From Ancylostoma caninum (lineage: Eukaryota > Nematoda > Chromadorea > Rhabditida > Ancylostomatidae), in the NCBI GenBank assembly GCA_037903475.1, contig JBAJFG010000626.1:62001-126000 (forward strand): a DNA stretch of 64,000 nt, written 5' to 3'. The translations under genes and the position numbers were made by a program. The notes beneath the pieces were generated by a model. It saw only the letters and a list, made by a program, of their open reading frames with translations, made no database searches and was not told where the DNA came from. Positions 19,071 through 31,115 of the stretch are shown in pieces (the stretch's first letter is position 1; the number at the start of each line of letters is the position of its first letter).

Positions 19071-19715
19071 TGTCAGAATGCAGCCCACGCATCCTCTTTT
19101 TATCTTCAACTCCCCGCCTCTCCGGAGCATGTGTAACGCCGGAGGCGGGTCCGAAAAAAAGAGAGAGAGAAGAGCTGGCTCCCTCGAGGATGGTCGCATC
19201 CATCCTTCGCCTACCTACTAGACTTGGGACTAATAAAAACCGAATAATTTTATTACTTTGATTAACGATTCAGAAAACAGTTTCAACATCCAGACATTCG
19301 AGAATATGAAAGCCCTAGAGCTCTTCTTCTCTCTCATACAGCACTTCATTGGTCTCCAATGTAGAAACATTGGAAATTTCCATTTATTTGAAATATTCGA
19401 TATTCGATAGCAAGAATACTCGGTCTCGAATAAATAGAAATTTGGAATGTCCCAACATCGAAGTCCAATACAATGCTGTACGAAAGAGAAGAAGAACATC
19501 ATGGCTTTCTCATCCTCAAAGATCTAGACCCATAAATCGTTTTCTAAAGTGTAAATTGAAGTAACAAAATTATTCGGTTTTTATTCGGTCCCAAGTATAC
19601 TACCTGCCTTTTTATACTCATTATTGTAATCCTTTATATATAATAAATCATATCAAATTAGCTGTGTACGTAGTAGGACTCCCCGACTATTCAGGTTCAC
19701 CCTATGATCCTGACA
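19071..19715 (+). repeat. 5' LTR of the inner element, interrupted
   Basis: It starts TGTCAGAATGCAGCC and ends CCTATGATCCTGACA. Apart from an insertion at about 19212-19600 it matches the 257-bp LTR at 30859-31115, including the TTTTTATACTC TATA-type motif and AATAAA-like sequence. Confidence 0.85.
19221..19595. mobile_element. TA-flanked MITE nested in the 5' LTR
   Basis: Inverted termini are CTTGGGACTAATAAAAACCG on the left and the inverse of a closely similar sequence on the right, with TA on both sides. It is absent from the 3' LTR, so it inserted after integration of the retroelement. Confidence 0.7.
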
Positions 19716-19733
19716 TGGAGGTCCCGGGGAGAT
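19716..19733 (+). promoter_or_regulatory. Primer-binding site of the inner element
   Basis: TGGAGGTCCCGGGGAGAT directly follows the CCTGACA end of the 5' LTR. It begins TGG, as expected for pairing with a tRNA 3' CCA end. Nearly the same sequence follows the 5' LTR of the outer element on the minus strand (33150-33167). Confidence 0.7.
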
Positions 19734-21384
19734 CTCTAAAACTTTTGAATATTCTATTTCAAAATGATATATTTCTCTTGGAAAAAAGTATTAATCAAGC
19801 TGGTTTCGAAAAAAAAGGTTTCTGACCTCAAAGTTTCAAATAAGTTGAAAATGATACCTCGTATCTTTTTTTTTCCCCGACAATCCTCCAAGCCACAACT
19901 CTTCTTCCCACGGATCCGGATCAAACGACGTGAGTTTTTTTTTTTCATATTCATTTTATTAATTAACCTGTGTGCTGTGCGTGTGCATTATATGAGCATT
20001 TAACCCTGCAGAACTCTGCAAGAGCTTTGTTTTCAGACAAAAAACACAATAAAACTGATAATTCTTCATAAGATGGTAAGAATATAAAAAAAGAGTCCTG
20101 GCGACGAGTGCCAGCTTATTTTCATGTTATAATGGAAATTTCTGGAATAATAAAACAAATTAACAGCAAATCCTTATTACCCTTAAATCCTTTTCCTTAT
20201 TTTTCCTGAAAACTGCTGAAATTTTTCCTTCTTTTCCCTGGTCCAGAGGCGTTGTACTCATACTTCGCGAGCTAGCCCTGTTTGCGTGCCTAGAAGAGCC
20301 AAATGGACACAGGCGGGAAAGACTAACGGTACGATATTTGAATGAAAATTCGCGATACGCTCCGAATTTTCCATTATTGACATTTCTCTACTATCTTCAC
20401 AACCTAAATGTAATGCTAATCCACAGTATAGTGGATTAAGCAATAAAATAATAAATCCTTCCTACTTTTGATGAGAACAAAAAGATTTTTTTCTCAAAAT
20501 AAGCATTGGACTCAGTCGTCATTGCGCGCGCACAACTATTTTCTGGCCAATCTTCGATCAAAGTGATTAATTGTGTCCGAGTGGAAGCAGTGATCGCGCT
20601 TCCAGACAGCTTAGTCGCTTTTTTCTTTTAAACTCGAGAGATACGAGCTCAAAATAATTATCTCTGGATTTTCGCGAGCAGCAGTTGCCCGTGGCCTCCG
20701 CCCTCAGGCAATATCACAGTCATTAATTTTGTGGCGAGACAAATAGCTCCGCCAACGCTTGCGAAACTTGGGCAATAGTCGGACAGCTGCGCGGTGTCAC
20801 TGACTAATTGCCGCACACATTTACAAATCGCCATGCGCATCGTTGCGAAACAAATTACGCACTATTCTGGTCCTGATTTACTGAGTAAACAAGTCTGCCA
20901 ACAAAAGAATTTATTCTTTTGAAATAAAAACAACAACAATTCTTCAGTAAGGCACTATCACGCCTTTATCGACTAAAGTTTCGCGGATGCTCTCCAGGCT
21001 GTGGAACCCACTAAAGCACACGCTTTAAAGCGTGCTTCTCTTTAGAGTATCCGAAAGCGAATCCGGTAGTCGACGTGTAGTCCCAAAATTCGCAATTTGC
21101 ACTGCTCCCAAGCGAAGCACAAGTCCGTTTCTGTCCCCTAGCTATTTGTCCTCGCGCCACAGATGGGGTACAGTTTGCCCACGGAATAAGTCCCCCGTTT
21201 CGGAGGTCGCATAAGCTGAAATTATACGAGAGATAATTTTTTTACTGACACTTTCTACTGAAAAAAAATATGAATAACTTACCGGTCATACTCTGGCCAC
21301 CCGTCGGTGTGCCAACAAGAGCCGATGTTTTCACCTTCCCATCTTGCATTATTGTGAAATTGGAATGTATCGCCCCTTTCGTGG
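19734..21384. other. Leader of the inner element, no gene recognised
   Basis: AT-rich at first, then more GC-rich from about 20500. A hairpin-capable stretch, GCACACGCTTTAAAGCGTGC, lies near 21016. No domain is recognised in the short frames. Confidence 0.45.
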
Positions 21385-22004
21385 TTAGATAGATAATAAT
21401 AATTTCTTCAGTGATCCTGGAGCAATTAGCGCGTTCTCCTGAATCAGTGGTAACATCCATCGCGCGCGCTCCAAGTCCTGCAGGAGTAAGGTGTTTTCCT
21501 GAAAAAAAAGAGAATTTTTTCCCCACTAGGTGAAGAGAAATCTTTTTTCTATTCACTTACTTTTTTCAACTCTCCTGTGATTGTCTTTTCGGCGGCCGCA
21601 TCAACTCGAGCCTTTCGGAGCTTGCGGGCGAGTTCCTCACACTCTTCTTTTCTTCTCCTCTTTCCATTCTCGGCTCTCTCCTCAAAGTATTCGACCCGTT
21701 TGCGAGTCTCTGTGAGCCGACAGTTGAGATCAGTAATCTCGTCGTCTTTGTCGCCGAGTATCGTCTCCGCGAGCGTCAACGCCCGCCTCAAATGATACGC
21801 CTCATCTTCAACCTCCGGAACCACCTAAAGTCGCATACATTCAACACATACATACACTATATGCCATTTAAAATTTAATCTCAAAATCAGGAATAAAAAA
21901 AAACTTCCTTTTTCTTGTTTTCCTACTATTAAATCAAGTAAAAACTGAACTACCTCCGGAATCTCATCGTATTCATCACTTCCACTAAGGCTGATAACGC
22001 TCAT
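21385..22004 (-). CDS. Antisense coiled-coil protein, 3 exons, inside the retroelement leader
   Basis: Exons on the minus strand are 22004-21954, 21824-21561 and 21498-21385. All join in phase 0 with GT-AG borders and encode about 142 residues. The ATG follows a TTTTTTTTCCAGA acceptor-like site, as expected for spliced-leader trans-splicing. The N-terminus is acidic (MSVISLSGSDEYDEIPE). The middle is a highly charged heptad-type coiled coil (TLAETILGDKDDEITDLN, then REQ-rich helices up to ELKK), and the last exon continues the helix (ENTLLLQDLERARWML). No family is recognised. It opposes gag in direction and lies between the primer-binding site and gag. It may be an accessory or captured gene of the element, or a later insertion. 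Confidence 0.55.
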
Positions 22005-22802
22005 TCTGGAAAAAAAAATTGAATACACTTACTCAAGGAGTAAAATCTTTAGAAACATGTAGTTATAACTACCATAAAAATAACTACTAGAGACAATGGG
22101 ATAAGAATTACTAGCCAACCGGCTGGAAATGAGAAGTGCAGATTTAAAGTTTAGACTGAGTTTAACGCCTCTTTTATACGGAGCACCAAGAAAGAATGAC
22201 GACTAAACTTAGCGGATCACAGCCGCCAGGTTCAAATTAGCGGTGTACGACGAGCAGCACACCAAACTGATTTCGTAAGCACATAATGATGCTTGGAATT
22301 CAACATTTAAATATATATATATATATGTTTTCAGAATGCTACCGTAATTTTTTCCTCACTTTCTCTCTCGCAAACTAGGCTCCGCCCCTTATCCTATCCA
22401 ATGGAGTGTAAAAAAAAGAAGTGATCCGTTGATCCCACTTCCATGGAAGCCATTCTTCGCATCAGTGCTCCTCCCGAGCGGCGGCTTCCTCCATCTGGCA
22501 CCAACCTTCTCCAAAAACCATCTTCAAACACAGGTACGCTTTCTCGTACGCAATTAGCGCGGCTTGCTGCCAGCGCCCTGAAACATTTATCTTCACCCTC
22601 CTCTCTGCTCGCTCATTGCGCTCGCCGCTAACTCGCGCTATTACACATCATTACGCGAAGCACCATTAAAAACAAAAACAAAACAACAAAACAAAACAGA
22701 AAATAACAAAATAAAATAAAACAAAAAAAAAGAGATTCTTTTTAATCATCTGTCGCAAACAAGTTTTCTCTTTCACAACTAGAATTCTAGTTCTCATATT
22801 CT
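22005..22802. other. Spacer between the antisense gene and gag
   Basis: It contains a (TA)n run near 22310-22326, a GC-rich block (22440-22640) without a credible gene, and an A-rich run before gag. It could hold the promoter of the antisense gene. Confidence 0.35.
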
Positions 22803-23986
22803 ATGAACACTAGAATCTCTGAAATCACATCTGATTCAGAGAACGAACGTTTGCGCCCCTATAGCATTAGCAATAGAGCATCCAAGAAGAAAAGATCAAA
22901 GTCTCTTCCCGGAAATTTCGCCAAAAAGCTTAAAAGAAAGGGAGAATTCAAGCAACTACCCCAAAATCATTCTTCCACAACACCAAAGACTTCTAGTTGC
23001 CCAATATTATCTCCTAGTAATTCTATTGCCCCGATTCCAAAATCAATTGACCCAATTTCCAACGTTTTGCCAGCATACCCAGTAAATCCACTTCCTAATA
23101 TTCTTCGTTCTTTACCCGAGCTTCCGGAAAGTGACTCTTTTGACGATCTTCTAGAAGAAATGGACGTTAACAATTTGGTCGACCGCCTAGATGCCGCTTT
23201 CAATAAGCTTTGTCTAGCGGCATACACTACCAAATTGCCCACTTTTTCTGGGGATCAGGGTGGAAAAGGTCTAACGAGTTTCCTTGAAAAATTCAATGAG
23301 ATTGGAAACATAATGAACCTGTCAGAAAATAAGATGGTACGTCTACTTCCCGCGCATCTGAAGGGAATAGCGAAATCAGTTTTCGATGGTTTCTCAGATG
23401 GAGAAAAACAAAATTGGAGAGTTGCAGTTACAGAACTAAAAGCTCAAGCCTATCAACCCAAATCAAACAAAGGTTGAAAATTCTTGGACCACTACCGAAC
23501 GACTACAATAAATCGCTCCGTGATGCAGAACGAATGTGGTATCTAACCGGAACTGATACTTCTTTATCAGATAATCTGGTTCTTTTGGAAAAAGTCGATA
23601 AAATTCTCGACAAAATAGAACCTAATAAACCACAGGTGCATATGATACATCGACGTAATTTTTCGCGTAATCCATACTCTCGCAACCTTCAGTATCAGAA
23701 CAGGAATTTCAATACAAATTCCTCTCACAACTATTTTAACAGAAATCAATCTAACAATGATATCTACCCAAGAAACAAATGTGTTCAGTTTATGCCAAAC
23801 ACAAGGGGTGCATTTAACCGAAACCAAAAAAATCTTCCTCGTTCGCGTTCTAATTTAAGATCTAGAACACCGCCCTATAGGAATAGATCTAGAACGCCAC
23901 CACATAGGGGTAGACAAAGTAATTTCAACAATTCCAGACCAAAACGAAACGTGAACTCTATAGGAGCAAACTTTTCCACCGGAATT
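22803..23986 (+). pseudogene. gag of the inner element
   Basis: The frame from 22803 begins with a basic, low-complexity region. A capsid-like helical part follows (LPTFSGDQGGKGLTSFLEKF, then ENKMVRLLPAHLKGIAKSVF), a layout seen in Gypsy capsids. The frame closes at 23477, but the adjacent frame from about 23450 continues the homology. It ends in a nucleocapsid-like basic tail (RSRTPPYRNRSRTPPHRGRQ) without a zinc knuckle. The change of frame may be programmed or a mutation. The second frame runs without a stop straight into the envelope-like protein. Confidence 0.65.
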
Positions 23987-26160
23987 ATGAGACATTCAAA
24001 CTCTCTATTCCTTTTTGCAATTTTCTGTATTCTTTTCCAAAGCTCCTCCTCATTTTCCATGAAATACCAGCTCTGTGCAGCAGGAAAATCCGGTTGGCCC
24101 GTTGCATATCCCGAAACTGTTTCTTGTTCTAGTAACATAAACTCTTCAAATATTTTAATAACAACTGCTTCCGTTTTTGTAGAGAGAACAGAACCAATTC
24201 TTTTGCAGGCTTTTCACTGTTTCAACAAAACACGGAAAATTTGTGCATCATCATATTTGCATATTTCTTTTTCCGTAAACAGTGGCGAAGAATTCATATC
24301 ACCCATCGAACCAGCCCTCTGCCGTTCCATCAGCGAAACTAAAAAGTTCATGGGAATACCTTTAGAAACACTTTCACCTAACGTTTATGGTTCTGAGAAC
24401 GACATTCACTATTCCTACCCCTGGTTCTTTGGAGAAAAATGTACGTATACAATAAACGTATATGTAGAAAAAGCTAATATCGCTACGTATGATGGCAATT
24501 CTCTGATAGGCCAATTTGGAGACATGGCACACTGCCATGTACAAGACAACCGTTGTAAGATGGCGCACGGAACTATAGTTTGGAACACATCACCTGAAGC
24601 ATCTGCAGCATGCAAATTTGTAAAAGCCACTGATGGCGTAGCTTATGTGACACCTACACATATAGTTATGGATAGCATCCAGTCCGCTTTTACTTACAAA
24701 AATATCACTTTCCATCCTTTACAAATATCATCTTGGTGTTTACCGAATATTTCTGTTGCCATGGATAATGGAGTGTTTATATCACTCCCAGAAATGCATA
24801 ACTTTAACCCTCGGACAGTATTTTCACAATACCCTACCTTAGTTCAAGAAATAAACCAAAAACACTTCAATGCGTCGAAAATTTTGCATCTTTTGAACAC
24901 TGTGTACCAAGGAAAAATTAGACGCACAAGAAACTCTTCAGTATTTTTGAAAATGACCTTACTAATGGAGAACACATTTCCCTCATTAATACAGTATTTG
25001 AACTTCTAGATTCCGCAGCATTTCCGAAACCATTCAGATATAAACCATTTCCAAGAAGAAGACCACGTTCCCGCACTAATATTAACAACCACAAAGAACT
25101 ATCCGTTATTCTGTTCCGAAACAAGGATAAATTACTAAGTAAATTTATAGGTAATGACTCAACCGCTGTAGCTCAACATATTACTTTAAACACCGAACCT
25201 GACTTTACTCTTTTAAATAACGACCCTTCCTTAACACATGAGCAACGTCAAGACCACCGCCATTATGAGCTAAACACTAAAATGCAATTTTTGAAAATAA
25301 AACTCGAAGAAGTTATCAAGCATGACTTCAACTATCTTTTCGATCGCACATGCGCACTTACGAATTTCAAAATTCAATCAATTAAGAGTATTGCACAAAT
25401 CAATCCAACTAGTGCAGCTCGAATGTTGCTCAATAGAAATGATATTTTTGCTATTCATGCAGGCGATGTACTGATGATTTCTAAATTCAAAGAAGTTCAG
25501 GTAGGTGAAATCTACCTTAATCACAACGTTAATGGTGTGTGCTATCTTAATACTCCAGTTCGCGTTGGGAAGACGATCTACTTCGTCCACCCAGGAACTA
25601 GAGATCTAACTGTGCAAAGTCCTCAGGCTGACTGCGGTCATCTACCTTACGGAATTTATAATGATGGTACTAATCACTATAAGTCACCATCGGGATACAC
25701 ACATGTATCACATATACATATGAATCTCCCGAATGACGTAGTAACGCAAGATTTTGTCTTCAATTCACCCCCGCTATTTCACTCAGATCTTGCAAAACTT
25801 GCGACCGATGTTTACCTCATCAAGAATAGACTAAATTCAATCAACGCCCTCTCTTCCCCAACCACAAAAACACGGAAAGAGATTAGTCTCCTTGATTCCA
25901 TGTCCGAGGAAATTGAGAAAGAAACAGTACCCACCATCGAATATATCGAATCAAATGCTGGTGACATTCTCCAGTCTTAGAAGGAGAAAGTCTTGCATTC
26001 CGTAGGCTTGCATTCTTTTCTGAGAACAATGGTTTATATAGTACTAATTGTTATATTTATCATTCTATTAGCACTCTTATATTGGTATTTTAACTTTATT
26101 CGCATTATTTTCCACTTTGTAACCCAACCTATTTGTGTCTTTCTTTCTATGCTTTTAACT
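23987..26160 (+). pseudogene. Envelope-like glycoprotein of the inner element
   Basis: From the ATG at 23987 there is a typical signal peptide (hydrophobic SLFLFAIFCILFQ core). A Cys-rich ectodomain of about 650 residues follows, with several N-x-S/T sites. A polybasic furin-like site RRRPRSR is encoded near 25054-25074, and a strongly hydrophobic anchor (VYIVLIVIFIILLALLYWYF) near 26032-26091. This is the layout of a viral surface/transmembrane fusion protein. The copy is broken: a frame change near 24955 and an in-frame TAG at 25978-25980, just before the anchor. The fusion-protein class is not determined. The position between gag and protease is abnormal for Gypsy-type elements. Confidence 0.65.
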
Positions 26161-27096
26161 AAAATCACAACAAGAACAAGGCCTTCACCGTCTGATTCGA
26201 ATCCTCCAAATGACAGACCCAAAGCCATAGCAAAGCGAATAAATCCAGAAAACCCGCTTGTGGCATATAATCGTGAGGATGAAACTATCAGCGTCCGTTA
26301 CACAAAACCACAAGAAGTCTCCATAGACGTAGAAGCCCCTTCAACGTCCACATCCTCACGAAACCCTCGCCCCAGTAAGCAGCCATTTCTAAGCTTCTTG
26401 CCTGACGTATCTCAAATTGAGACAACAGATACCACATCAACGATATACATTCTGCTTATAGTTGATGGACTCTCAACTGTAGCTCTTTTTGATACTGGAG
26501 CAGCTATTACCGTAATTTCTGAACGACTTGCTAAGAAACTGAAGAGAGTTATGGAACCCCGCGCCATCTCCGAAGGTATTGCCGCAAACGGCACTTCTAT
26601 AAAATTAATTGGACAAGTACACTTTGTACTCAAGGTTGGTAAGAAATCTATTGAAAGCTCTGCTTTTGTAGCTGAAGACGATCAGTGTTCGGCTGACCTT
26701 CTTCTGGGTAACGACACAATTCGTCAATTTGCCAACAAAGTTTCCATTGATTACAAAGTCAGAGAAATTACCTTTGACGAAGAAATTATTTCCATAGTTA
26801 CACTTGGAGAATCAACCTCTTCCGATTTTTCCGCCCCGGTGTATTTATCATCACACACCCTTTTGAGGCCCAAAACGGATAATATAGTGCTAGGATCAAT
26901 ACGTACATCATTTCTTAATAAATGGGAATTTTTCGTTCAAGATGACCCTACGATACCCCTACCCTATGGTATCGCCATCGGTAAAACTTTGTCTTGTCCT
27001 GAGTTAGAGGGAACAGTAGCACTACGAATTTTCAATGGAAATTTTCCCCAGTTAATCTCAATAAAGGCAAAATTATCGCAACTGCAACGTATGTAG
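26161..27096 (+). pseudogene. Retroviral-type aspartic protease of the inner element
   Basis: The frame containing the membrane anchor (25993-27096) continues into an aspartic protease with the active site ALFDTGAAITVIS, a flap-like region, and LLLGNDTI matching the ILG motif of retropepsins. Anchor and protease are thus in one uninterrupted frame. A frame change near 27060 separates it from reverse transcriptase. Confidence 0.75.
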
Positions 27097-28660
27097 GCAA
27101 AGAGATGGAATGGCCATCTATCTTTTCTGTCTACGCTTCCTCGAATCAACCTAATAATCTTACTAACCCTCAAGAAAATTTCGAATGCGTACCGAAAGAA
27201 GCAGATGTTTCGAAGGAAATGCCAATTTTCCCGTCCAAAAATCCACTTCCACTAATGAATCGTATTCGCATTAACCGATCGCTACTCTCCAGTGACCAAT
27301 CTTACCAATTCAACAATCTTTTGAAAAAATGTTTCGTTGGAGATGATGGTGATTTAGGTCTTTACACTGGCCCAATAACTCACAAAATTAATTTCATACC
27401 ACATGCCAAAGCGCCTACACAACGCCCTTATCGAGTTCCCCTTGAAAAACGCAGCGAAATCAGACGTCAAATCGAAGAAATGTTACGTACGCGCATTATA
27501 GAACCGAGCACTAGGAAATTCGCTTCACCAATTGTTCTGGTTCAATTAAGGACCAATGGCGTTTTACTGTCGATTATCGACAAATTAATGCAATCAAAGA
27601 AAGCGAAACGTATTGCATACCGCACGTTCAAGATATTATAGACCTTACCAGTGGAAAGGAAATCTATACCGTTCTTGACTTTAAGAGCGGATTTTTTCAG
27701 ATACCACTTGAGAAGAAACATAAGGAACGCACAGCGTTTTCCTCCTTTCTTGGCCTATATTAATTTACAGTGATGGCACAAGGCCTTAAAGGTGCACCTG
27801 GAACTTTTCAGCGAGTAGCAAATAGCCTCATACGCGAACTGAAAGCTTGTTGTTTTGCTTATATCGACGATATAATTATCGCAAGCCAATGTATCGAGGA
27901 ACACTTTCGTGATTTGGAAGAAGTCTTTATTCGCATCCTCAATTTTGGCATAAAATTGACAGCCGAAAAATGTTCTTTTTTCCAAACCGAAGTGAGCTAT
28001 TTAGGCGTTTTGCCAAGTAAAAATGGGACGCGTCTCAATTCTGAAAAGACAGCCAGTATTGCAAATTTACCTCGTCCGAACGATGCCAAAACTGTAAAAT
28101 CATTTTTATGAGCAGCATCATATTTTCGTCGGTTCATACCACGATTTTCTTTCATCGCAACTCTTTTGAATAACTTACTAACGAAAAATGCTCAATCCGT
28201 CTGGACAGACGACCACGAAAACGCATTTTTAACGTTAAAAAGAGCTCTAGTACGAGCACCACTTCTGGTCCCGCCCACATTAGGCCAGCCGTATGTTATA
28301 CATACGGATGCGTCTACAATAGGTATTGGTGCTTGTTTGCTACAAAACAATCCAAAAACGAATAGAGAGCACCCAATAGCTTACTGTAGCCGCCCTCTCA
28401 CCAAGCACGAGAAAAACTACGCTGTCATAGAATTGGAAGACTTAGCAATTGTTTTTGCTTTGAAACATTTTTACCCATACGTGGCAAATGCTTCCATAAC
28501 GCTAGTAACCGATCATGCACCTCTGAAGTCACTCATGCACAGATCAGATCTTGTTGGACGACTAGCTGAATATCAAATGACCATACAGGCGTTTGAAATG
28601 AAAATCGAATATCGTGCTGGAAAGCACAATACACTTTGTGATTTTCTGAGTAGATACCCA
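27097..28660 (+). pseudogene. Reverse transcriptase and RNase H of the inner element
   Basis: Reverse transcriptase motifs are spread over three frames: PYRVPLEKRSEIRRQIEEML, the VDYRQINAI block, LDFKSGFFQIPLEKK, QGLKGAPGTFQRV, and the catalytic AYIDDIIIAS. RNase H follows (YVIHTDASTIGIGACLLQ, YAVIELEDLAIVFAL, LVTDHAPLKSL). Frame change near 27545, a stop near 27763 and a TGA at 28109 interrupt it. The order and motifs are those of Ty3/Gypsy. Confidence 0.85.
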
Positions 28661-30036
28661 GTAACGAATGTAAATTCGATTCAAATTAATTCGTTACCTA
28701 CTCTACAAGAAATCCAACGAAGTCAACTACAATCACAATGTAAAGGCCTCATACAGTTTCTCTCTGGAGAAATTAAAGACCCACCAGCAAAGTTTTCTGA
28801 ACAACTCGATAAGTATTCCATCTTCAACAATACTTTGTATTCTAATTTGCATGGATCACCAAAACTGCTTGTACCTGATCAGAACATGCAAACCAAGATC
28901 ATCGCAGTATTTCATGATAACCCATTAATCGGATCCCATCTTGGCATACGAAAAACGTATAAGTCAATTTCTTCCAAATACATTTGGCCTAAAATCTAAA
29001 ACAACATAGCCAAATTCGTAAAAACTTGTCCTGTCTGTCAAACAGTGAAAACACCTTTAGGAAACATCATTCGCGAAGAGTTAGGTTCTTTTCCTATACC
29101 TCAACGACCTTTTGAGCGAATCCACACTGACATAATTGGTCCTCTACCACAGCGTATTTACGGAAGTAAATTCATCTCTATAACTGTTTGCGCATTTAGT
29201 AAATTTATAATTTGCACACCCCTCCTTAATCAAACCACTGACATGGTGATTAAAGCATTAGTAAATGATGTAATCTCTAAACATGGTATCCCAAATGAAA
29301 TTGTTTCTGATCGAGGATCCAACTATACCAGCGATCTTTTCGCTCAACTCAATAAAACGCTAGAAATCTCTAACAATTTTACCACCAGTTACAACCACAA
29401 AGCGAATGGGCAAGTCGAAAGACTAGTGAAAGTTATCACAGATTCACTTACATCTTGTTGCAGTCAAGCAAAAGACTTGTGGTCTGATTTCTTGCAGCCT
29501 GTTGTATTTGCTTATAACTGTAGTATTAACGACACTACAGGGTATAGCCCCTTCTATGTTGTATTCGGAAGGCACCCGATCACATGGTGTGATATTAGCA
29601 TCACGTCTCTCGTTTGCCACAGACAGCTTCTCCGATCAATTCCAAATGGCGTTGAAAACCACGATTATCGATGTTGGAAAGCAGATCGCCGAAAAGAGGG
29701 TCAACTACAAATCAGGTTACTACTTTCAACATAAAGTTTATTCAAAGGACATTTCTACTGGTGATTTGGTTTTGCTGAGGGACGATACCGTTCGCCCGAA
29801 ATTCACAAATCAATGGAAAGGTCCTTTCGAAGTAACCCAAATTACTCGCCCTAATATTACGATTGTCAGTGTTATAAGTTCATCTAGACCTCAGACTGTA
29901 CATATTGACAGAATGAAATTGTATTGTGGACGTCCAACGTCGGTTAGCATTTCCACCCAAAATCAACCCAACCGTAATTCGCAACCAACGGAAATGCCAA
30001 AAGACAACCTACAAGGCGTTCTCAACGTCTACTGAA
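28661..30036 (+). pseudogene. Integrase of the inner element
   Basis: The zinc-binding H-H-C-C domain is present (HDNPLIGSHLGIRKTY through CPVCQTVK) but cut by a TAA at about 28997. The catalytic core is visible (HTDIIGPLP, VSDRGSNYTSDLF, NGQVERLVK), with the three acidic residues D, D and E in place. After a frame change near 29590 a GPFEVTQI segment follows, the GPY/F domain typical of Gypsy integrases. The frame ends at 30036. Confidence 0.82.
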
Positions 30037-30858
30037 TAAGAGAAACCCTTCCAGGCTTACCACAGAGCAGCCCGCTGAGAAGGGTCAATAACTGTTCAAT
30101 CACGTTCCAAAGAACGATGATAGTTATTGTTAGTTAATGGTGAAGTTTTGTTTCATTTTTTCCTTTGCAAAAGTATGTTCTTTAAATTGGCGGTTCAAAG
30201 AATATCAGTAGTGGAAAACAAGCCTTCTTCTTGACTGATTCGCCCACATGCTGAATGAAAACCGGTGTGCAGTGCTCAATTCAGCGTGTGCAAATCGCTG
30301 TATTTCGTTTTCTAGACAACAGTCAATTTACGCTAAGCTATAGTCACAACACCTAGTATTGTCAAATAATTAACATAGGAAATTTTTGCTAACATAAAAC
30401 ATAAAAGCTATACAAGATTTAAGTTTTTCTTCGCTGTATTTTATTTTTTTTTTTGCTTTCGCCTGTACCACATAGATACCATTCCATGCAACACATCGAC
30501 AAGAGAACATCGCATGTCAGACCCATAGCTTAGAATTGAAATGTCTGCATAACTATTTTTACTATCCCCCCCCCCCCCTCACCTCCATTTGGAATCGTTC
30601 AACATTTCCACACGTCAGCTCTCATCGGAATCCTTCCTCTCAACACCACACCACCCGCGACAACTACTCCATTCCGTTTCGTCTACGCTCGAGGACGAGC
30701 TCCACACTTTGGGGAGAGTGCAGTTGTAGGTCGTAATCACGTGTCGTGATTCACCGAAGCGGCTCTCCTCTGAAGCAGACCGAAAGACCTCAAATCAGCC
30801 GATCAATGCCTTCGCTTTTTCTCAAAGCTCGAGGACGAGCTTTTCCTAGGAATGGAGA
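30037..30858 (+). mobile_element. 3' internal region and polypurine tract of the inner element
   Basis: Noncoding. It contains a C12-type run near 30565 and two copies of GCTCGAGGACGAGC (about 30689 and 30828). It ends CCTAGGAATGGAGA, a purine-rich tract directly before the LTR. Confidence 0.6.
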
Positions 30859-31115
30859 TGTCAGGATGCAGCCCACGCATCCTCTTTTTATCTTCAACTC
30901 CCCGCCTCCCCGGAGCATGTGTAACGCCGGGGGCGGGCCCGAAAAAAAGAGAGAGAGAAGAGCTGGCTCCCTCGAGGATGGTCGCATCCATCCTTCCCCT
31001 ACCTACCCTTTTTATACTCATTATTGTAATCCTTTATATATAATAAATCATATCAAATCAGCTGTGTACATAGTAGAACTCCCCGACTATTCAGGTTTAC
31101 CCTATGATCCTGACA
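30859..31115 (+). repeat. 3' LTR of the inner element
   Basis: 257 bp, from TGTCAGGATGCAGCC to GATCCTGACA. It is uninterrupted, unlike the 5' copy. The frames over it (30746-31186) are not genes. Confidence 0.88.

Follow-up and report, generated by a model that had tools for sequence, protein, structure and literature searches.

The stretch of Ancylostoma caninum DNA analysed here (64,000 nucleotides of assembly GCA_037903475.1, contig JBAJFG010000626.1; termed the window, whose numbering is used throughout) contains a decayed long terminal repeat (LTR) retroelement that spans positions 19071-31115 and carries an envelope (env) gene in the middle of its coding region. We assume that this element represents a family of Gag-Env-Pol polyproteins in which a class III Env follows the nucleocapsid tail of Gag and precedes the protease; to this reading, which draws on genome sequence and gene models, we assign a probability of about 0.72. 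The gene order was read in the window and in further copies from the same genome (348 Mb), many of which share one frame from gag to integrase.

The order in the window copy is gag, signal peptide, Cys-rich ectodomain, furin-like site, transmembrane helix, protease and reverse transcriptase (RT)/RNase H/integrase. A sequence-only reading of the window had already placed a glycoprotein between gag and protease, and every part that it named was found at its position. No stop separates the gag tail from the signal peptide within the open reading frame (ORF) 23333-25009, which has a Met codon at 23987; the furin-like RRRPRSR is encoded at 25054-25074, and the helix and the DTGA motif of the protease share one open stretch, 25981-27096. 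The element has TG..CA ends, its LTR pair (TGTCAG..CTGACA termini) is flanked on each side by the target duplication GATG, and the primer-binding-site-like sequence TGGAGGTCCC lies directly 3' of the 5' LTR. The LTR pair, the GATG flanks, the primer-site-like sequence, a match to the viral glycoprotein family PF24664 and the recurrence of the order elsewhere argue that the window copy did not arise as a mosaic by chance.

Copies in the same genome

A search with the C-terminal half of env yielded 115 matches, merged to 97 places including the window. Twenty-seven other copies were read, of which L002-L008 are the best matches and L009-L028 were picked by hand from the 115 env matches. The N-terminal half of env, its C-terminal half and the helix/protease region follow each other in this order in all 27; RT comes next after the protease in 26 and was unseen in L009. 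Gag precedes env in 21 of the 27, 18 times within the same stretch and three times in a neighbouring stretch (L021, L024, L028), and was unseen or unsought in L005, L022, L023, L025 and L027. The env frame is free of stops across the whole stretch of 3.7-4.3 kb in 17/27 copies. For nine copies the neighbouring stretches were read separately: gag matches lie in the env frame in eight of them (partly so in L004; none in L026), and RT, RNase H and integrase likewise in eight, the shift in L012 falling inside RNase H.

The copy on contig C4 has LTRs identical over 171/171 bp, CTGT on both flanks and a frame of 2383 codons, and it shares 19/20 primer-site bases with the window. Its identical LTRs and CTGT flanks indicate recent transposition, with the arrangement moving as a unit. 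Scans of IMG/VR with the env C-terminal half, an RNase H piece and alignment A6, and of GTDB with A6, found no relatives.

Relatives in other worms

Deposited strongylid proteins, which are gene models in which false splices are possible, show the same junctions. Six were found with the C-terminal half of env, five of them from Cooperia, Ostertagia (two), Teladorsagia and Necator, and a search with the gag tail and the N-terminal half of env found five. In P0003 (Ostertagia, 611 residues) the ectodomain, helix, protease and start of RT are joined, and in P0007 (Necator) a piece of env precedes a piece of the protease, the helix being absent. On the gag side, gag continues via an Arg-rich tail into the signal peptide in P0009 and P0011 (both Ostertagia), the first of which has no Met at this point, and gag precedes env in P0008 (Ostertagia) and P0010 (Cooperia). 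Ostertagia proteins hence display both junctions and Necator the env-protease order, and the locus numbers of P0003 and P0011 are neighbouring. One Ancylostoma ceylanicum protein was found with the protease piece. P0001 (A. ceylanicum) and P0005 (Teladorsagia) are host gene models (an M13 peptidase and a lactate/malate dehydrogenase, respectively) fused to pieces of the element; these fusions are probably annotation artefacts.

Class of the element and of its fusion protein

The domain order protease-RT-RNase H-integrase fits an LTR element of the Ty3/Gypsy (Metaviridae) type, and both copies tested have TG..CA LTRs with a target duplication of 4-6 bp (GATG in the window, CTGT in the C4 copy). 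Among the pol pieces of the window copy there are matches to the protease, RVT_1, RT_RNaseH and rve families, and none to a BEL/Pao family; the matched families presumably point to Gypsy. WKGPF, at 29814-29828 in the window integrase where the Integrase_p58_C match is below its cut-off, may correspond to the GPY/F integrase module. By domain order and LTR features the family is of Ty3/Gypsy type.

The C-terminal half of the window env matches PF24664 (Monjiviricetes fusion glycoprotein) with E=6.9e-15 and PF00606 (herpesvirus glycoprotein B, gB) with E=9.4e-5, the latter below that profile's cut-off; no relevant Pfam match was obtained for the N-terminal half. Among ten env pieces from different copies, nine match PF24664 at E<=0.01, eight of the ten above the cut-off, and L024 does not match it. 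PF24664 scored above its cut-off in 59 of 62 genome matches, as against 0 of 14 control genomes. Profiles of six or seven family members, compared with the PDB up to E=1, retrieved gB chains only (44/44, best 2.2e-6, and 45/45, best 1.1e-9). The matches to PF24664 and the exclusive gB matches in the PDB lead us to regard Env as class III by sequence, that is, as a gB/chuvirus-like fusion glycoprotein. The sequence-only reading had left the class of fusion protein undecided; a class I or class II Env was rejected.

Eleven Cys columns of the ectodomain are each shared by 11 or more of the 13 copies compared. A motif R-X-[KR]-R is present in mid-ectodomain in five of the six upper lineages compared, L021 having only R-X-X-R; it stands at varying positions in L024, L026 and L028, and the four deepest lineages have only R-X-X-R.

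Gene order seen from the integrase

An integrase search provided a starting point independent of env and gave 150 scored matches of 713 candidates, which correspond to 144 places. At 36 of these, env lies upstream in the same open frame (judged by equal frame length). A single Gag-Env-Pol frame is present in many copies. The distance from env to integrase is 2.88-3.12 kb in 35 of the 36 and 2.34 kb in the remaining one, and 24 of the shared frames comprise 2256-2655 codons. At 39 further places env is upstream in another or a broken frame. The nearest env is downstream at just two places, 5.8 and 9.1 kb off, and adjoins other copies there; an env behind the integrase was rejected, with no credible case among the 144.

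At 67 places no env match was present within 10 kb; integrase identity is at least 65% at 24 of them, 40-64% at 12, 35-39% at six and lower at 25. The sequence upstream of the integrase was read in 20 stretches of 5 kb or less, 19 from these env-less places and one (L066) from an env-paired place. They include 11 of the 24 close env-less places (identity at least 65%). All 11 are fragments or internally deleted, L049 and L056 retain the start of env after gag, and an intact gag-protease junction was found in none of them. The sequence-only reading had named, as counter-evidence, intact relatives with no glycoprotein at this place or with one behind the integrase; the search of the same genome, as far as its places were read, supports its interpretation.

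Among the nine distant places read, a weak env match stands ahead of the protease or RNase H in six (L058, L060, L061, L062, L064, L066) and is absent upstream in three (L059, L063, L065); the count of 67 is therefore too high for distant lineages. The env piece of L060 matches PF24664 with E=4.3e-10, above the cut-off, and L066 has in one frame a zinc knuckle and, behind it, three matches (PF24664, gB and protease) that do not reach their cut-offs. Env and protease belong to the gag-side frame in L058 and L061. The protease-bearing frame overlaps the RT-integrase frame by about 60 nucleotides in L058, 110 in L061 and 20 in L064, a layout like that of programmed frameshifting, and the overlap in L058 and L061 suggests frameshifting there. 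L065 (contig C59, integrase identity 30%) combines a gag match below the cut-off, a zinc knuckle and RT in one frame, and neither env nor a hydrophobic segment was found in it; it looks like a distant Gypsy-type lineage and an env-less outgroup, possibly one that precedes the capture. Frames of 2120 codons with a Gypsy-type integrase are present in L065 and on contig C69.

Ancestry and selection

The trees of the env C-terminal half and of RNase H have 8 of 11 internal splits in common. For env, the ratio of nonsynonymous to synonymous divergence (dN/dS) in 11 within-lineage pairs was 0.213, 0.062, 0.169, 0.169, 0.047, 0.468, 0.092, 0.556, undefined (a pair with no synonymous change), 0.135 and 0.539; five deeper pairs were saturated. 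The four pairs with dS above 0.03 gave 0.062-0.169, and env is under purifying selection in these better-diverged pairs. The sequence-only reading had left it open whether the arrangement is ancestral. The env-in-middle arrangement is ancestral in an old and diversified family.

Proposed expression and topology

The region around the signal peptide was compared in 22 copies; L005, L017 and L023 (broken there) and L026 and L027 (whose stretch begins past the signal peptide) were left out. No Met is encoded in the 40 residues ahead of the signal core in 19 of the 22. The three copies with a Met before the core (L024, for which 8 residues were available, L025 and L028) form one lineage group. A splice-acceptor-like TTTNCAG or TTTTAG within 250 nucleotides before the signal peptide was found in six copies, which belong to two lineages and have it at two different positions, and a 2A-like NPGP motif was sought in L002-L028 and not found. 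Lacking a Met, a conserved splice-acceptor-like site and NPGP, env therefore seems to be read as part of Gag.

Lys and Arg outnumber Asp and Glu in the 30 residues after the helix in all 22 copies. According to the positive-inside rule, the basic side of a membrane helix is located in the cytosol, which would place the protease and Pol in the cytosol. The protease motif D[TS]G[AS] is found downstream of the helix in 21 of the 22 copies and was not found in L004. Motifs of the type VNSI, INSI, VSSV, VASV or IASV precede the signal peptide in 19/22 copies and represent a possible protease site. In the window copy VNSI is encoded near both the gag/env border (23951-23962) and the RNase H/integrase border (28670-28681).

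We lean towards a model in which Gag, Env and Pol form one membrane-crossing chain, Env carries Gag and Pol to the budding membrane and the anchored protease triggers release. Translation, topology and processing, as we infer them, would proceed as follows. Full-length RNA would be translated into the Gag-Env-Pol polyprotein, and the internal signal peptide, emerging after Gag, would steer the chain into the endoplasmic reticulum. Gag would remain cytosolic and, after the action of signal peptidase, would be anchored by the signal peptide. Env would fold and be cut on the luminal side by a furin-like protease. The helix would halt transfer, leaving protease, RT, RNase H and integrase in the cytosol and tethered to Env; a membrane-anchored precursor of the protease would follow from the single frame. 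Being located on Gag's face of the membrane, the protease could release both Pol and Gag, the latter perhaps by a cut close to the conserved VNSI-like motif. Gag, Env and Pol would reach one membrane patch in a ratio of 1:1:1, and the Env anchor would take over the membrane-targeting role of the retroviral matrix domain.

Several observations weigh against the polyprotein reading. The window copy is dead (one frame change in gag at about 23.45 kb, one in env at about 24.9-25.0 kb, a stop between ectodomain and helix, and pol broken in several places), a state to which the sequence-only reading gave little weight. Long frames were preferred when L009-L028 were picked, and gag was sought ahead of env in L026 and not found. 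In the deep copies L058-L064 there was no match to gag; the RT-integrase frame of the deep lineages differs from the env frame, and env and protease are in different frames in L064. The env and RNase H trees conflict on three splits, among them the joining of the deepest lineages (support 0.94 for env, 0.558 for RNase H), and one of the shared splits has an env support of just 0.359. Seven env pairs have dS below 0.03; one of these has an undefined dN/dS and three have values near 0.5 (0.468, 0.539 and 0.556, at dS 0.0025-0.025). Copies near the window have 2-4 basic residues just before the helix, where the positive-inside rule is weak, and some of them have a second, weaker hydrophobic stretch after it, so that the cytosolic placement is less firm for this lineage. 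AlphaFold models of the two env halves reached pLDDT (predicted local distance difference test) values of 40.8 and 32.9, too low for use. Finally, splicing could still express parts separately.

Alternative explanations

This last point can be extended to an alternative in which Env, with or without Pol, is produced from a spliced mRNA in which the signal peptide is linked to a short leader from gag, and little fused Gag-Env arises. For the Env of insect errantiviruses, translation starts in an exon that lies 5' of gag or, among members of the idefix subclade, inside gag itself (PMC12992720). Env has no Met of its own in most copies, and a spliced leader could supply one. The splice-acceptor-like site is, however, not conserved (6/22 copies), and we consider this route unlikely; as Env and protease share a stop-free frame in 17/27 copies, even splicing would yield Env fused to Pol. 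We give little credence to the idea that the central domain is a membrane-bound structural spacer for assembly or RNA handling which no longer acts as a fusion protein. It would agree with the missing Pfam match of the window's N-terminal half, and fusion activity and fusion loops are putative. The signal peptide, the N-glycosylation sequons, R-X-[KR]-R in five of six upper lineages, the 11 conserved Cys columns and the matches to the gB ectodomain all speak for a fusion protein instead.

Two further explanations would make the order accidental, and both were rejected as extremely improbable. The decayed state of the window copy, with frame breaks in gag and env, could betray a rearrangement or chimera in which an env fragment landed between gag and protease. 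This is contradicted by the relatives, since env runs into the protease in all 27 other copies with gag ahead in 21, and parts of this order recur in proteins from Ostertagia, Cooperia and Necator; moreover, the element has LTRs and a target duplication. Nested insertions are common, and an env-less Gypsy element could have received an env-bearing one; inserted DNA may be present in the leader, which measures 3 kb. Such a pair is not compatible with in-frame joins on both sides in several lineages, with the nearly constant spacing of env and integrase (35 of 36 places) or with the splits that both trees share.

Relation to known systems

The gene order gag-pol-env and an Env produced separately from Gag-Pol count as fundamental traits of retroviruses. 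Contrary to env-bearing Gypsy elements and retroviruses, where env is a separate gene after pol, env runs into the protease in 27/27 copies of the present family. We know of no retrovirus for which an assembly strategy with Env threaded into a Gag-Env-Pol chain has been described. Fusogens resembling gB reportedly occur in nematode Mavericks, which the literature search did not confirm. The pol of insect errantiviruses is of the Ty3/Gypsy type.

Atlas virus and the nematode belpaoviruses encode a single Gag-Pol-Env polyprotein whose fusion protein was captured from a virus (PMC9094657). Atlas thus resembles the present family as a nematode LTR element with a captured viral fusion protein as Env in a polyprotein, and differs by its BEL/Pao pol, its class II phlebovirus-like Env and the position of Env at the end (PMC9094657). 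Anakin is likewise an LTR element with a chuvirus-derived glycoprotein; however, it is a BEL/Pao element of mosquitoes, and earlier BEL/Pao glycoproteins are downstream of the polyprotein (PMC7642597). The Tas/Cer elements are nematode retroelements with a weakly gB-like env (PMC9094657 and PMC7642597 disagree on which element), but are BEL/Pao with env downstream of the polyprotein (PMC7642597). Glycoprotein endogenous viral elements (EVEs) of Jingchuvirales in arthropods and nematodes are of the same chuvirus type, some of them near Gypsy fragments; a survey that looked for capture of such a glycoprotein by Gypsy did not clearly find it, and the two nematode EVEs are flanked by simple repeats (PMC10084718). 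Insect errantiviruses, including gypsy, share with the present family an LTR element with env, whereas their Env is F-type and encoded in a third ORF (PMC12992720). Cer1 of C. elegans is a nematode Gypsy element without a stop between gag and pol, for which no Env-like protein is reported (PMC10309623). In their accessible parts, the zebrafish and bdelloid papers showed no gag-env-pol order and the Troyka paper was not relevant.

The sequence-only reading knew of no description of the arrangement. In agreement with this, our literature search, in which subscription literature was thinly covered, found no LTR element whose env lies between gag and pol. Class III Envs that were captured, and polyproteins of the Gag-Pol-Env type, are already known, and it is the env-in-middle order that appears to be new; as far as the literature was searched, no other Ty3/Gypsy-type family has been described with a class III Env of the gB/chuvirus-like kind. 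An Env that is kept inside the Gag-Pol chain through deep divergence indicates that a retroelement can become env-bearing by in-frame insertion within its polyprotein. The order points to a hitherto undescribed means by which shell, envelope and enzymes could be held at one membrane and, if this is true, an assembly strategy that was retained through long divergence in parasitic worms and was recently mobile. It raises the questions of how the dosage of Env and Pol is set, how the protease is held off until budding and whether an Env anchor can stand in for a matrix domain.

Features of the window copy

Table 1 Features of the retroelement copy in the window of Ancylostoma caninum contig JBAJFG010000626.1
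Feature	Position	Strand	Remarks
5' LTR	19071..19715	+	holds inverted-repeat insertion resembling a miniature inverted-repeat transposable element (MITE), missing from 3' LTR; 148 and 117 nucleotides match 3' LTR at 96.6% and 94.9%
primer-binding-site-like TGGAGGTCCCGGGGAGATCT	19716..19735	+	starts with TGG, abuts 5' LTR; 19/20 bases shared with distant-lineage copy
gag N-terminal piece, capsid-like, 3' side broken, putative start codon	22803..23474	+	54-63% identity to parts of P0008-P0011
gag C-terminal piece with Arg-rich nucleocapsid-like tail, continuing into env	23441..23986	+	frame of ORF 23333-25009; NVNSI at 23948-23962; aligned to P0009 and P0011
internal signal peptide, predicted end	23987..24058	+	hydrophobic core 24005-24061; Met at 23987 without counterpart in most relatives
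env ectodomain, N-terminal half	24059..24943	+	58-66% identity to P0008-P0011; Cys and N-glycosylation sequons
env ectodomain, C-terminal half, class III/gB-like	24922..25977	+	RRRPRSR at 25054-25074; PF24664 E=6.9e-15; 115 own-genome matches
stop codon splitting ectodomain from helix	25978..25980	+	relatives without stop here
transmembrane helix	26026..26082	+	Kyte-Doolittle hydropathy 3.02; equivalent helix in 27 copies
aspartic protease	26461..26727	+	DTGA at 26491-26502; gag-asp_proteas PF13975 E=4.1e-10
reverse transcriptase, two pieces	27003..28111	+	27003-27641 and 27764-28111; RVT_1 E=3.9e-18 on 27764-28108
RNase H and start of integrase (zinc-binding)	28112..28999	+	RT_RNaseH_2 E=4e-34; RT_RNaseH E=2.3e-31; Integrase_H2C2 E=1.1e-8
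integrase core and C-terminal region, two overlapping frames	29000..30035	+	rve E=1e-11; Integrase_p58_C E=0.035, below cut-off
3' LTR (257 nucleotides)	30859..31115	+	GATG directly after

The N-terminal gag piece has no Pfam match and matches six of nine copies of the own genome at 29-69%; the window gag lacks part of the sequence that is present in relatives. Part of the first RT piece is 74.6% identical to the RT portion of P0003. Antisense open stretches on the minus strand at 21242-22006, within the 3-kb leader, resemble by eye a charged, intron-interrupted gene; their ORF 21245-21556 gave no Pfam match. The two LTRs are about 4% apart (10 mismatches in 265 aligned bases, in two pieces that overlap slightly). 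The MITE-like insertion in the 5' LTR occupies 19219-19599, and its arms of 160 nucleotides are 74% complementary.

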